NCBI GenBank assembly: GCA_009777995.1
Contig: WRKT01000004.1
Location: 62,001 to 126,000, forward strand
Direction: 5' to 3'
Length of the DNA stretch: 64,000 nt
Source of the DNA: Treponema sp.
Lineage (GTDB): Bacteria; Spirochaetota; Spirochaetia; Treponematales; Breznakiellaceae
Shown here: positions 39,393 to 44,680 of the stretch, in pieces
Position numbering within the stretch: position 1 is the stretch's first letter
How the letters are laid out: every line of letters begins with the position of its first letter
The notes under the pieces: model-generated
The model's database searches: none
The model's input: the letters and a program-made list of their open reading frames with translations, nothing else
What the model was told of the DNA's origin: nothing
Translations under genes and position numbers: made by a program

Positions 39393-40140
39393 CAAACACA
39401 AGCTCCTCTGCCTTGAAAATCGGGCCGTCTGTGCAGCAGTTCAGGTTCCCGACGGTGGTTTTTACCTTACAGGCAAGGCAGGCACCTACACCGCAGGCCA
39501 TGTGCGTCTCCACACTAAGGTATGCAGGGACTTTGGCAGCCTTGCAGATGCCTGCAAGGCTTTTCAGCATGGGCTCCGGCCCGCAGGCAAATACAACGCC
39601 ATAGTCTTCCGGCTTAAAAAAGTCTAAAATGCGGCCCTTTTTTCCTTCCGAGCCGTCTTCAGTGGCAATTATTAATGAACGCGCCTTGATTTTTTCAAGT
39701 CCGAAGGGCCGGGATCTAAAGCCGGCATAAAAATCGAAGGGAATTTTCAATTCTGAAGCAGTTATCAAGAGGGGAGCAATGCCGATTCCACCGCCAATAA
39801 GGGCAATAGGGCTTTTTTTTGCATTTAGCTCCCCAATTGGCCAAGAATTCCCGAGGGGACCAATCAATAAAGCCTTTTCGCCCTGTTTCATGTCAATAAG
39901 CTCATTACTGCCCCGGCCCCTCCCTGCAATAAGGAAGCGCAGAAGGCCCTTCCGGAAACCTGCAACGCTTATCGGGCGGGCAAGAAAGACAGAGGTTCTT
40001 TCGGGTTTTATTAGAAAAAATTGTCCCCCAAGGGGAGGCGGGCCCTTCCAAGCAAATTCGAGAGCCGCAGTATCCTGCGAGAGAAGCCGGGCTTTAGTAC
40101 ATTCACAGAGAATCGACTCCTTTAAGCCGCGGCCCTCCAT
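39385..40140 (-). CDS. pyrK: Dihydroorotate dehydrogenase electron transfer subunit
   Basis: A 251-residue FAD- and [2Fe-2S]-containing subunit. It has ARPISVAGFRKGLLRFLIAGRGRGSNEL in the FAD domain and SVETHMACGVGACLACKVKT plus a later Cys in LNCCTDGP as the iron-sulfur ligands. It transfers electrons from PyrD to NAD. It overlaps the hemerythrin stop by one base (TGATG) and pyrD by 8 bp, so the three genes are coupled. Confidence 0.95.
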   Translation of the reverse strand: MEGRGLKESILCECTKARLLSQDTAALEFAWKGPPPLGGQFFLIKPERTSVFLARPISVAGFRKGLLRFLIAGRGRGSNELIDMKQGEKALLIGPLGNSWPIGELNAKKSPIALIGGGIGIAPLLITASELKIPFDFYAGFRSRPFGLEKIKARSLIIATEDGSEGKKGRILDFFKPEDYGVVFACGPEPMLKSLAGICKAAKVPAYLSVETHMACGVGACLACKVKTTVGNLNCCTDGPIFKAEELVFDE

Positions 40141-40628
40141 CAGCCTATCTGCATCCGGTCCGTACTTTCGTCTTTTTTGACCTTCAACGTTATTTTTTGT
40201 AATTCTCCGCTTCTCTGCAGGGCAATCAGATAATCACCCATCTTTTTATCATTCACTGCTATATGATGCAGAACCCAGTCCCTAAGGAAATATACGAAGG
40301 TTAGGGGTGCAAGCACCTTTCCTGCCTTAAATTCTTCAACTTTATTGAAAACTTCCCGTACAAATGTGGAATGTTCCTTCTTATGATTCATATAATCAGG
40401 GTAATTAACCCTTTCCATTACCTTTTCTTCGGTGCTGAAGTGATACCCAACATAATCAACAGCATCGTGGATTGTACTTAGAAAGGTCGCCCTTGACCTT
40501 TCTCGGCCTGCAAGGCAGTTATTAAAGAGTCTATTTGTTAGTTTGATAAGTTCCATGTGCTGCTCATCAATTAATTTTATACCAACTGAATATGATTGCT
40601 GCCATTGAACAACTTTTTTTTCAGGCAT
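40140..40628 (-). CDS. Bacteriohemerythrin
   Basis: A 162-residue hemerythrin: W(QQS)YSVGIKLIDEQHMELIKLTN, HDAVDYVGYHFSTEEKVMERVNYPDYMNHKKEHSTFV, and LRDWVLHHIAVNDKKM supply the seven His/Glu/Asp ligands of the di-iron, oxygen-binding site. In an anaerobe it may bind or shuttle O2. It leads an operon with pyrK and pyrD. AGAGGTG is the ribosome site. A paralogue is at 62302. Confidence 0.95.
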   Translation of the reverse strand: MPEKKVVQWQQSYSVGIKLIDEQHMELIKLTNRLFNNCLAGRERSRATFLSTIHDAVDYVGYHFSTEEKVMERVNYPDYMNHKKEHSTFVREVFNKVEEFKAGKVLAPLTFVYFLRDWVLHHIAVNDKKMGDYLIALQRSGELQKITLKVKKDESTDRMQIG

Positions 40629-40745: not shown

Positions 40746-40784
40746 CCGCTTTTTATTTTTTTAGAATAAAAAAATAAAAAGCGG
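40746..40784. terminator. Perfect 17-bp stem-loop at the tRNA-Gly 3' end
   Basis: CCGCTTTTTATTTTTTT pairs exactly with AAAAAAATAAAAAGCGG, with a 5-base loop. On the minus strand it begins with the last four tRNA bases, so it probably ends tRNA transcription. Confidence 0.7.
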
Positions 40785-40850
40785 ACGACGGGAATCGAAC
40801 CCGCGTCACAAGCTTGGGAAGCTTGGATAATACCATTATATGACGTCCGC
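40780..40850 (-). tRNA. tRNA-Gly (anticodon CCC)
   Basis: The minus strand folds as a tRNA: acceptor GCGGACG with CGTCCGC, a short D arm, anticodon stem CAAGC/GCTTG with loop TTCCCAA, and TpsiC arm with GGGTTCGATTCCC. The anticodon is CCC, and the base after the acceptor is T, the usual discriminator for Gly. No CCA is encoded. It begins ten bases after the cheY stop codon, so it may be transcribed with it. Confidence 0.95.
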
Positions 40851-40859
40851 AAAAAGCAA

Positions 40860-41237
40860 TTATTCGGGCTTATTAAGAACCTTTTCTATCGATTCTATCA
40901 GAGATTCGGGCACAACCGGCTTGCCAAGAACGTCAGCGGCGCTTGATTTCCTGGCTTCAGCAAAGAATTCCTGCCCTGTTTTACCGCTAACAATGATTAT
41001 CGGCACTAACATATAGCTTGGAATGGTCCTAATTTCGGTAAGAAATTGAAACCCGTTAATATTTGGCATCTCAATATCCAAAAGTATGATATCAACTTCA
41101 CTTTCATTCATAAATTTTAGTGCATTCGTTGCAGAATTTGCCGTAAAAAGATCATACTTATTACTTAGAATATTCTTAAATAAAGTAAGCTGCACAGGAT
41201 TATCATCTACTGCAAGAACCTTTTTTCTTTCTGCCAT
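40860..41237 (-). CDS. CheY-like response regulator
   Basis: A 125-residue single receiver domain: VLAVDDNPVQLTLF, phospho-acceptor Asp in [16 protein letters not shown], Ser/Thr in [11 protein letters not shown], and Lys in VLGKPVV. GAGGAG precedes ATG at 41237. It follows the hydrogenase-MCP gene and overlaps no coding sequence with it. It probably receives phosphate in a signalling chain from that sensor. It is close in sequence to the CheY gene on the other side. Confidence 0.93.
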   Translation of the reverse strand: MAERKKVLAVDDNPVQLTLFKNILSNKYDLFTANSATNALKFMNESEVDIILLDIEMPNINGFQFLTEIRTIPSYMLVPIIIVSGKTGQEFFAEARKSSAADVLGKPVVPESLIESIEKVLNKPE

Positions 41238-41250
41238 TCTTAACTCCTCA

Positions 41251-43419
41251 CTATCTTGGGGCATTCCTATTATGATCTTCTTCCATGGCAACAAGCCTGG
41301 AAATTATTTCCTGGTCATTCTCCTCGATTGCACGGACTATGTCTGCCGACATCGCTGCAAGGAAGTTAATATCATACCTCAACTTGTCGGTCAAAGACAA
41401 CATTTCAGAGTAATCACCCTTAACCGCACCGCTTGTTTCCCTTAAAACTTCCAGTGAATTGGTGATTCCTGAACTTTCGGCAGATAATTCACTCAAGGTA
41501 TCGATCAACTCTGTCATTGTGCCCGCAAAACTATTGATCTCCCCGGACATATCGTTGATTAGGTTGCCCGTATCACCTGTTCTCTTAGAAGTGGTATTGA
41601 TCCCGGAAATAATGCTCGAAAGGGTCTGGGAAATACTTCGAGAATTCTCCCTTGTACTTTCCGAAAGACGGCGAATCTCATCGGCAACAACAGCAAAACC
41701 TCTTCCCGCCTCGCCTGCATGGGCCGCTTCAATGGCAGCATTCATCGCGAGCAGGTTAGTATTAGCTGCTATCACACTGATAATCTTAATTGCAGAAGCA
41801 ATACCGTCAACAGATTCGGAAATATCCTGGACAGCAAGAATGGTCTCTTTCATTGCATCCTGACCCTTTGCTGCATTTTCAATCAATTCCATAATGGATT
41901 CGCGCTTCTGCCGTGAAAGGTCGGAAGTACCTTTAAGAGAGCTGACAATCTTACCCGTAACAGCCGAAGATTCCTCTACCGACTCTGCCTGGGTATTTAT
42001 GCGGCCATTCAGCTTTTCCACAAGGGTATTGATATTCTCAATAACATCAAGTGCACGGCTGATATGGGTTTTTAATTGGTGGTTGATATAAACGATGGTC
42101 TTTTTCTCGTCAGCAAGCAATGCCACATTATAATGTGCGCAATTAGAAGGTTTATTCAGACCGTTATGAATGGCAGTTGCCATTCTCCTGCAGCTCTGGT
42201 AGCCGCAGGCAGTACAATCGTAAATATCTGCTTCAGTATTCTTTTTTAAAGCCTTATAAACTTCCTGCAGCTCCCTCTCATTCGGACGCTTTAGGGTATT
42301 GTTTCCGCTAAGATCCCTATAAGAACGATTATAAAGACCCGGCTTCCAGAAGCGGTTAAGCATACTGTGATACCTCTTATAAAGCCTTTCGTTATGCTTC
42401 GGATTCAGCTGCTTTTCAAGCTCCCTCGAACGCTTACGAATAGGACTCTCAAGCTCGTCAGTGGATTTATGGCCGTTTCCTGTGCCGGGGCCGCCGTTAC
42501 AGCCCACTTCACAGTTAAGGCAGTCAATAAGGAGGGGGAACTCTATTTCAGGTCTTTTCAGATCCTTTGCAAGCCCTGATAAATAATGATAGATCGTATG
42601 AACTCCCTCAATCTTGCGGGTATCTCTTCTAATGCCGGGCACGAAACGCTCGGCAGTTTCAAGCAAGCCGCCGGGGGAGGAAAACATTACCGCTCTTTCA
42701 GCGCCGGGGCCCACATATTCGACTGCAGGAAATCTTGAAAGGTCTAACCCCTGCTTTTCAAATAACAATTTAAGGCCCAGCATGGTGACATTATAGTCCC
42801 CGCAGCCCGTTTCTTCGAATTCCCTTTTCTTTGCAATACATGGAGATATAACAGCAATTTTATGGTTCCTATACTGCGGATAATACTCCCTAACCATTTT
42901 GACAGAGTGAAGCATCGGACTGTCTGCAGGTGCAAGATATGGGATTAGGTCCGGACGATAGATTTCGATAAAGCTAACTATCGCAGGACAGGGCTGGGCA
43001 ATTACTAACTTCGGCTTTTTTTCCTTGATATAATTAACATAGGAAACAACCGTAAGCTCTGCTCCAAAACTTACATCGAAGCATTCCTCAACCCCAAGTG
43101 ATTTCAGGTAGCCGTTCAGCTTAAGGTAATTCCCCGGAAATACCGAAGCAATTGCAGGGGCCACAATGACAACCATCTTCTCCCCGCGCCTAAGATCATC
43201 AAAGAAAAGTTCCGTATCATCAATTCCATGCCTCGCCTTATGGGTGCAGACAGAAATGCAGTGTCCGCAGCCGATACAAAGGTCATGGTTAACATTCAAT
43301 ACCTTTCCTGATCCGTCATTACAGTATTTTACGGGGCATGCTGTTATGCAGGCATAACAGTTGATACATTTATCCTCGTCAATCTTAATAACCGGGGCTT
43401 GTTTCCCTGTACTACTCAT
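41251..43419 (-). CDS. Sensory [FeFe]-hydrogenase fused to a methyl-accepting chemotaxis domain
   Basis: A 722-residue soluble protein with no membrane segment. Two 4Fe-4S motifs (C18[22 protein letters not shown]) lead into an H-cluster domain with three loops: [15 protein letters not shown] and [11 protein letters not shown]. All four cluster Cys are kept, but the neighbouring proton-transfer Cys of catalytic enzymes is Pro, as expected of sensory hydrogenases. [10 protein letters not shown]-type Fe-S domain follows, then an MCP signalling hairpin ([39 protein letters not shown]). It should sense H2 or redox state and control flagella through CheA. CheY genes flank it on both sides. Confidence 0.93.
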
Positions 43420-43438
43420 TTTATTCCCCTTTTCCTCT

Positions 43439-43816
43439 TTAGGCCTTTACAGCCAAAGCCTCTTCTATAGTAGCAATTAAATCGTCTGTTTTGACCGGTT
43501 TATGAAGCACTGTATAAGCACTTGCAGCCTTAGCCTGATCGGTAAAGCCCGGTCCTACAGTGCCGCTGACAATTATTATCGGCACGTCCATATAACTGGG
43601 GATTTTTCTAATATCGAGAAGAAAATCAAAACCGGAAATATTGGGCATTTCAATATCAAGCAAGATGATATCAGCCTTATCAGAATTAAGGTAATTGAGT
43701 GCATGAGAAGCAGAATTGGCTGTACGTACATCGTATTTATCACCCAACATTTTTCCAAACATATCAAGCTGCATCATATTGTCGTCTATCGCCAGAACTA
43801 TTCTTTTTCCACTCAC
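43439..43816 (-). CDS. CheY-like response regulator
   Basis: A 125-residue receiver domain ([14 protein letters not shown]; Asp in [31 protein letters not shown]). It resembles the one at 40860 throughout, so the two are paralogues flanking the sensor gene. I start it at GTG 43816 (MSGKRIVL) because GGAGG lies nine bases upstream; ATG 43825 would leave the site touching the codon. Confidence 0.92.
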
Positions 43817-43888
43817 AGGCTCCATCCTCCATTATTTACGGCTAATTGTACTTTTATAATGTCTTTTGTATTATTTTATTATACTTGA

Positions 43889-44680
43889 TTAATTACCACC
43901 GGTCAATGCCAATTTACTAATGCCCAGGTCATGAATGTCCAGGATGTCCACGGGCATATCAATTCTCTCGTTCCCGTGAAGCTTAAAACGCCCCTCAGTA
44001 ACCCTTAAGCCGGCAATGGAATTTTTCTTTATCGCATCTACATAATCCGCAATTGATTCCATTTTTTTATCCAGAATCACTCCAAATACAGAATCAATAT
44101 CTATTATACCATCCACATAATGAATATCCGACCCTGCAAGAACGGGAAATCCCAATTTCTTCGCATAAGAGTATGCAAGTGCATCAAAAGATTGATGATG
44201 GGCCCTATTCCCGGCCTCTACCCCGTCAATTGCGCTTGAAAGGCAGATCCTGTTTATATGGGGATACTGCCTGAAAGGATGGGCATGAACAATACAGCCT
44301 CCGCTCTGCCTTACCTGCTCAAACTGCTCCTCCCTTGTCCAAAAACGCACTTGCGGATGCTCTAAAAGCCAGTTTCTATCGAGCCCATAGATAAGATAAT
44401 CATCGCCGCCACGGAAGGTCTCCTCCCAGCCGAAAAATACATCAAGACCCCTTCGAGCCCCCTCTTCCCTTGCGTCTTCAAAGCCCTTACAGAATTGGTG
44501 CACCCATTTTTCCCAGGAAAGGCTGCGATTAACGGCAGTATAACCGTTATAAAAATGGTCCGTAACAATAATACCGGTGAAGCCAATATCAAGGTATCTT
44601 TGGATATAGTCCCTTCCCCTTGATGATCCGCATCCGGAACCCTGAACAGTATGAAGATGGGTCTCGTAGATGTATTCCAT
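43889..44680 (-). CDS. PHP-domain metal-dependent phosphoesterase
   Basis: A 263-residue protein with the PHP metal motifs: YETHLHTVQGSGCGS, IIVTDHFYNGY, GWEETF, IVHAHPFRQYP, and GSDIHYVDG. Such proteins hydrolyse phosphoesters such as histidinol phosphate or nucleic acid ends. The substrate is not clear from sequence. It follows a GNAT gene by 12 bp with no ribosome site, but has TATACT six bases before ATG, so it may also start its own leaderless mRNA. Confidence 0.88.
   Translation of the reverse strand: MEYIYETHLHTVQGSGCGSSRGRDYIQRYLDIGFTGIIVTDHFYNGYTAVNRSLSWEKWVHQFCKGFEDAREEGARRGLDVFFGWEETFRGGDDYLIYGLDRNWLLEHPQVRFWTREEQFEQVRQSGGCIVHAHPFRQYPHINRICLSSAIDGVEAGNRAHHQSFDALAYSYAKKLGFPVLAGSDIHYVDGIIDIDSVFGVILDKKMESIADYVDAIKKNSIAGLRVTEGRFKLHGNERIDMPVDILDIHDLGISKLALTGGN

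Follow-up and report, generated by a model that had tools for sequence, protein, structure and literature searches.

Treponema sp. GCA_009777995.1 encodes a protein, HydS-MCP, that joins an [FeFe]-hydrogenase domain of the sensory type to an MCP signalling domain in one chain. It is probably a cytoplasmic chemoreceptor of the C2 type, in which a low-turnover hydrogenase domain would serve as the input and pass a signal of H2 or redox state to the chemoreceptor array. The gene (722 aa; 41251..43419, minus strand) lies in a window of 64,000 nt, positions 62,001-126,000 on the forward strand of contig WRKT01000004.1, from a MAG of 2.63 Mb in 59 contigs that is 86.6% complete; its annotation draws on Pfam domains, motif columns and an alignment of 35 sequences. 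In HydDB, [FeFe] group C2 is listed as 'Chemotactic (putative)', with H2 sensing through MCPs (PMC5037454). Judged from its architecture, in which an H-domain with all ligand cysteines and an MCP signalling domain share the same chain, HydS-MCP matches this group and does not differ from it. A putative H2-sensing receptor type of this kind has been described before, and the window locus is one more instance of it; what it adds to the C2 description is a dedicated receiver with valine at position 106, and the doubling of that receiver.

Domain architecture and cluster ligands

Pfam matched two Fer4-type domains (residues 11-58), the H-domain Fe_hyd_lg_C (81-311, 4.5e-29), an FeS domain (PF04060, 400-428, 4.4e-07) and MCPsignal (PF00015, 514-673, 3.8e-29). 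These matches bear out the first-pass annotation, which had described an [FeFe]-hydrogenase of the sensory type in one chain with an MCP signalling domain, with two ferredoxin-type motifs and one further Fe-S motif. No PAS or HAMP domain was matched in the 722 aa, and the MCP hairpin comes directly after the FeS domain, with no PAS between them. The Kyte-Doolittle mean over 19 residues peaks at 1.58, inside the hairpin; a membrane receptor was therefore rejected, and the earlier description of a full hairpin without a membrane helix stands.

The H-cluster motifs are QP143C144P (L1), S192PC194 (L2) and C303xxxC307 (L3), and the motif columns confirm that all ligand cysteines (C144, C194, C303 and C307) have been kept, as had been proposed. 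The FeS motif Cx2Cx4Cx16C is formed by C402-x2-C405-x4-C410-x16-C427. Against the models of catalytic enzymes, HydS-MCP scored 100.3 bits for group A (TIGR02512, cut-off 406) and 134.3 bits for group B1 (TIGR04105, cut-off 450). With scores far under the curated cut-offs, it is by these models neither a group A nor a group B1 enzyme.

The proton-transfer position

Pro143 aligns with the proton-transfer cysteine C299 of CpI, in agreement with the replacement noted in the first reading of the sequence, while CpI M353 and M497 correspond to Ser192 and Leu301. All three residues are unvarying in 60/60 Treponemataceae relatives, as are the H-cluster ligands C144, C194, C303 and C307. The full set of H-cluster and FeS ligands is conserved both in these relatives (60/60) and in the alignment across several phyla (35/35), which includes loci of Desulfoluna, Acidobacteriaceae, Holophagaceae, Auribacter and Thermoclostridium; Pro143 is invariant there too (35/35). 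Since proline occupies the position throughout both sets, it is a family trait, and a sequencing error or one-off event as the cause of the lost catalytic cysteine was rejected. The reservation that re-sequencing might restore the cysteine thus falls away. In the 35-sequence alignment C33 and C300 are also invariant, the latter beside the L3 ligand loop.

Loss of C299 and a C-terminal Cx2Cx4Cx16C FeS domain are the defining features of sensory groups C and D, the FeS domain being a mark that the two groups share (PMC8163306); HydS-MCP has both, with P143 at the C299 position and C402-C405-C410-C427. Most published sensory enzymes carry alanine at 299 (PMC8163306, PMC10407848). Taken together, C299P, M353S and M497L follow the substitutions of the characterised sensory enzymes. 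TamHydS, a group D enzyme of Thermoanaerobacter mathranii, has A/S/L at CpI positions 299/353/497 and so shares M353S and M497L with HydS-MCP, with alanine rather than proline at C299; it also has two Fer4 domains, the H-domain, the Cx2Cx4Cx16C FeS domain and no PAS, but HydS-MCP is fused to an MCP hairpin, and TamHydS carries no output domain in its chain (PMC8163306, PMC10407848). An alternative proton path through E252/E289 (TamHydS numbering) has been described for TamHydS, which belongs to group D (M2e) (PMC10407848). TmHydS (group C, Thermotoga maritima) resembles HydS-MCP in its sensory H-domain, its C-terminal FeS domain and the loss of C299, but it contains a PAS domain, has alanine at C299 and carries Ser/Gly at M497/M353 where HydS-MCP carries Leu/Ser (PMC10055695). 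With no PAS domain after its FeS domain, HydS-MCP falls outside group C as defined by PAS (M2f).

Distribution of the sensor module

Homologues of HydS-MCP are common in the Treponemataceae, where they occur in most genera and often in several copies, and the sensor module (H-domain plus FeS) was found in several phyla. Among named relatives the closest are Treponema/Spirochaetes MAGs, with isolate codes that appear to denote termite hosts. The title of Ballor, Paulsen and Leadbetter 2012 (Microb Ecol 63:282) reports hydrogen sensors in termite-gut treponemes; that study reportedly described multiple [FeFe] hydrogenases together with H-domain sensor proteins and proposed possible links to methylation and chemotaxis. 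A published spirochaete carries the C1 and C3 types (PMC6052044). The HydS-MCP of Acetoanaerobium noterae, a cultured species of Clostridia (NZ_CP154629.1, L248), shares the full architecture and the motifs QPCP, SPC and ILNC, with 37% identity over the sensor; its neighbouring genes differ.

In several relatives the module is joined to other outputs. In L092 (2448-4766) the H-FeS module shares a chain with an adenylate/guanylate cyclase domain (PF00211, 6.7e-29), an output that is not among the HydDB C1-C3 types. In L091 (2458-5196) and L144 (2757-5495), which may be the same contig, it is fused to an Hpt and HATPase kinase, and in L169 it is joined to a PAS histidine kinase. The occurrence of the same module with varied signalling outputs is consistent with a sensor role.

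The receiver genes and their neighbours

HydS-MCP is the middle gene of a minus-strand trio, in the order receiver, HydS-MCP, receiver, separated by 19 and then 13 bp. The upstream single-domain receiver, RRup (43439..43816; Response_reg, 4.2e-21), starts with GTG, and an ATG lies in frame at 43825. The downstream single-domain receiver, RRdn (40860..41237; Response_reg, 1.7e-23), starts with ATG, the TTG at 41294 given in the ORF list having been rejected as too long. A sigma-70-like promoter (TTGACC-17-TATAAT; 43878..43906, minus strand) is predicted ahead of the operon from an 11/12 consensus match, and overlaps the 3' end of the preceding gene.

The two receivers are 54% identical and belong to one subfamily. 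Both retain Asp12/13, Asp57 and Lys109 of CheY, and in both the CheY switch residues are replaced, Thr87 by serine and Tyr106 by valine. Two receivers do flank HydS-MCP, as the first-pass annotation had it, but by their switch residues they are not canonical CheY proteins. Among the relatives tested, nearly all have Ser87 and Val106 in their upstream receiver as well; at position 106, valine was found in 11/12, threonine in 1/12 and tyrosine in 0/12. The genome contains 83 receiver matches, and some single-domain receivers elsewhere in it retain Tyr106.

An orthologous receiver is encoded directly upstream of HydS-MCP in 13/17 of the closest loci; the more distant loci examined all lack it. 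RRup, RRdn and the upstream receivers of the relatives form one supported tree group (98/93). No downstream receiver was found in any relative locus examined, RRdn being seen in this genome only. The upstream receiver is therefore a partner gene that has been conserved with HydS-MCP within the closest clade, and it is doubled here. Either a local duplication or the acquisition of a related copy may lie behind the doubling, and the tree is compatible with both. The pair as a conserved unit was rejected, and the idea that a double CheY arrangement makes up an H2-chemotaxis unit is not upheld, since among the loci examined the doubling is confined to this genome.

In L120-L124 the receiver-HydS-MCP operon is adjoined, on the upstream side of the receiver, by the gene for a divergent RR-HisKA-HATPase-RR-Hpt hybrid kinase. 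The short ORFs that precede HydS-MCP in L111, L131, L165 and L166 were discarded as partners: they had no Pfam match, are by eye mutually unlike and are probably not genes. An ORF of ~948 aa upstream of several paralogues is DNA polymerase I in L141, the one tested. On the other side of the window's operon, a tRNA-Gly(ccc) gene (ARAGORN; 40780..40850, minus strand) lies 9 bp downstream of RRdn. It had been counted as a member of a compact H2-chemotaxis unit; nothing supports a functional link, and it is treated here as an incidental neighbour. Just past it is a bacteriohemerythrin gene (40140-40628 of the window; NF033749, 3.2e-35), which was not seen at the HydS-MCP loci of relatives.

Signalling tip and chemotaxis genes

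The CheA/CheW-contact tip of HydS-MCP is a close match to those of other MCPs of the same genome. The residues for CheA binding are present, which answers the objection, foreseen at the outset, that the signalling tip might lack them. Since the tip matches the MCPs of the genome, and a single CheA is encoded, HydS-MCP probably joins the ordinary chemoreceptor array. No site of HydS-MCP fits the strict methylation consensus, and one relaxed match was found, at 478. The chemotaxis cluster of the genome (L059:3834-8129) consists of cheA, a cheW/cheR fusion and cheX, with no adjoining cheY.

H-cluster maturation

Two catalytic HydA proteins with intact TSCCP motifs are encoded in the same genome, and H2 is thus physiologically relevant to it. 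Family models detected no HydE, HydF or HydG in the MAG, and a search with a relative's protein likewise gave no HydG or HydF. As the MAG is incomplete, these results are no proof of absence, and because catalytic HydA needs the same maturases, an assembly gap is as likely an explanation. HydG was also not found in 14/42 high-quality Treponemataceae genomes, all 42 of which have H-domain proteins; the HydG-negative genomes include that of the window (G000), G188, G189, G194 and G009. HydF is present in G188 and G189, and G188 also has a HydE-like gene.

Proposed mechanism and alternatives

In the mechanism that we favour, H2, or the redox poise that it sets, would alter the state of the H-cluster, and the accessory 4Fe-4S clusters would receive electrons, among them the cluster of the FeS domain that immediately precedes the coiled coil. 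This would change the hairpin and, through it, the activity of CheA in the common array. The receivers would most likely take phosphate from the array or from a linked phosphorelay, and their role would be that of a phosphate sink or of a private output, not that of the motor-binding CheY. The failure to find maturases in the incomplete MAG, the lack of a strict methylation site and the loss of Tyr106 from the receivers weigh against this reading. To our knowledge, no MCP-fused member of the family has been biochemically tested so far.

The failure to find HydE, HydF and HydG, together with the HydG-negative genomes of the family and the proline that stands for the proton-transfer cysteine in every member, could also point to a chemoreceptor with several [4Fe-4S] clusters that responds to redox state, O2 or NO. 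Its H-domain would be empty or partly loaded, with a [4Fe-4S] cluster but no 2Fe subsite, and H2 would not be the stimulus. We consider this unlikely: H-cluster ligands that are invariant over several phyla would be unexpected in an empty site, the intact HydA proteins depend on the same maturases, and the cysteine is dispensable for H-cluster binding in TmHydS and TamHydS (PMC8163306). It is highly doubtful that the lineage truly lacks the standard maturases, in which case the H-cluster would be assembled by an unknown route, or HydS-MCP would be a maturase-free Fe-S redox sensor with a private non-CheY receiver.

Alternatively, the output may lie outside motility, with the H2 state relayed through the dedicated Val106 receivers, linked to the array or to a phosphorelay, to gene expression or another process. 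The conservation of the upstream receiver, the loss of the CheY tyrosine in all 12 relatives tested, the hybrid kinase beside the receiver in several relatives and the histidine-kinase and nucleotide-cyclase outputs of the same sensor are in keeping with such a role. However, the hairpin tip suits an ordinary array, no hybrid kinase of this type adjoins the operon of the window, and HydS-MCP lies beside cheB in one relative, so that this seems distinctly improbable. The C2-type chemoreceptor remains the reading that we prefer.

Implications for treponemes

MCP-linked [FeFe] sensors are catalogued as putative only, and no test of H2 taxis through such a sensor was found in the literature searched. 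HydS-MCP brings testable features to this class: a proline that is invariant across several phyla at the proton-transfer position, an FeS domain immediately ahead of the coiled coil, and a dedicated receiver without the CheY switch tyrosine. H2 exchange is central in the habitat of termite-gut-type treponemes, and a working H2 chemoreceptor would therefore bear on how these treponemes find their position.
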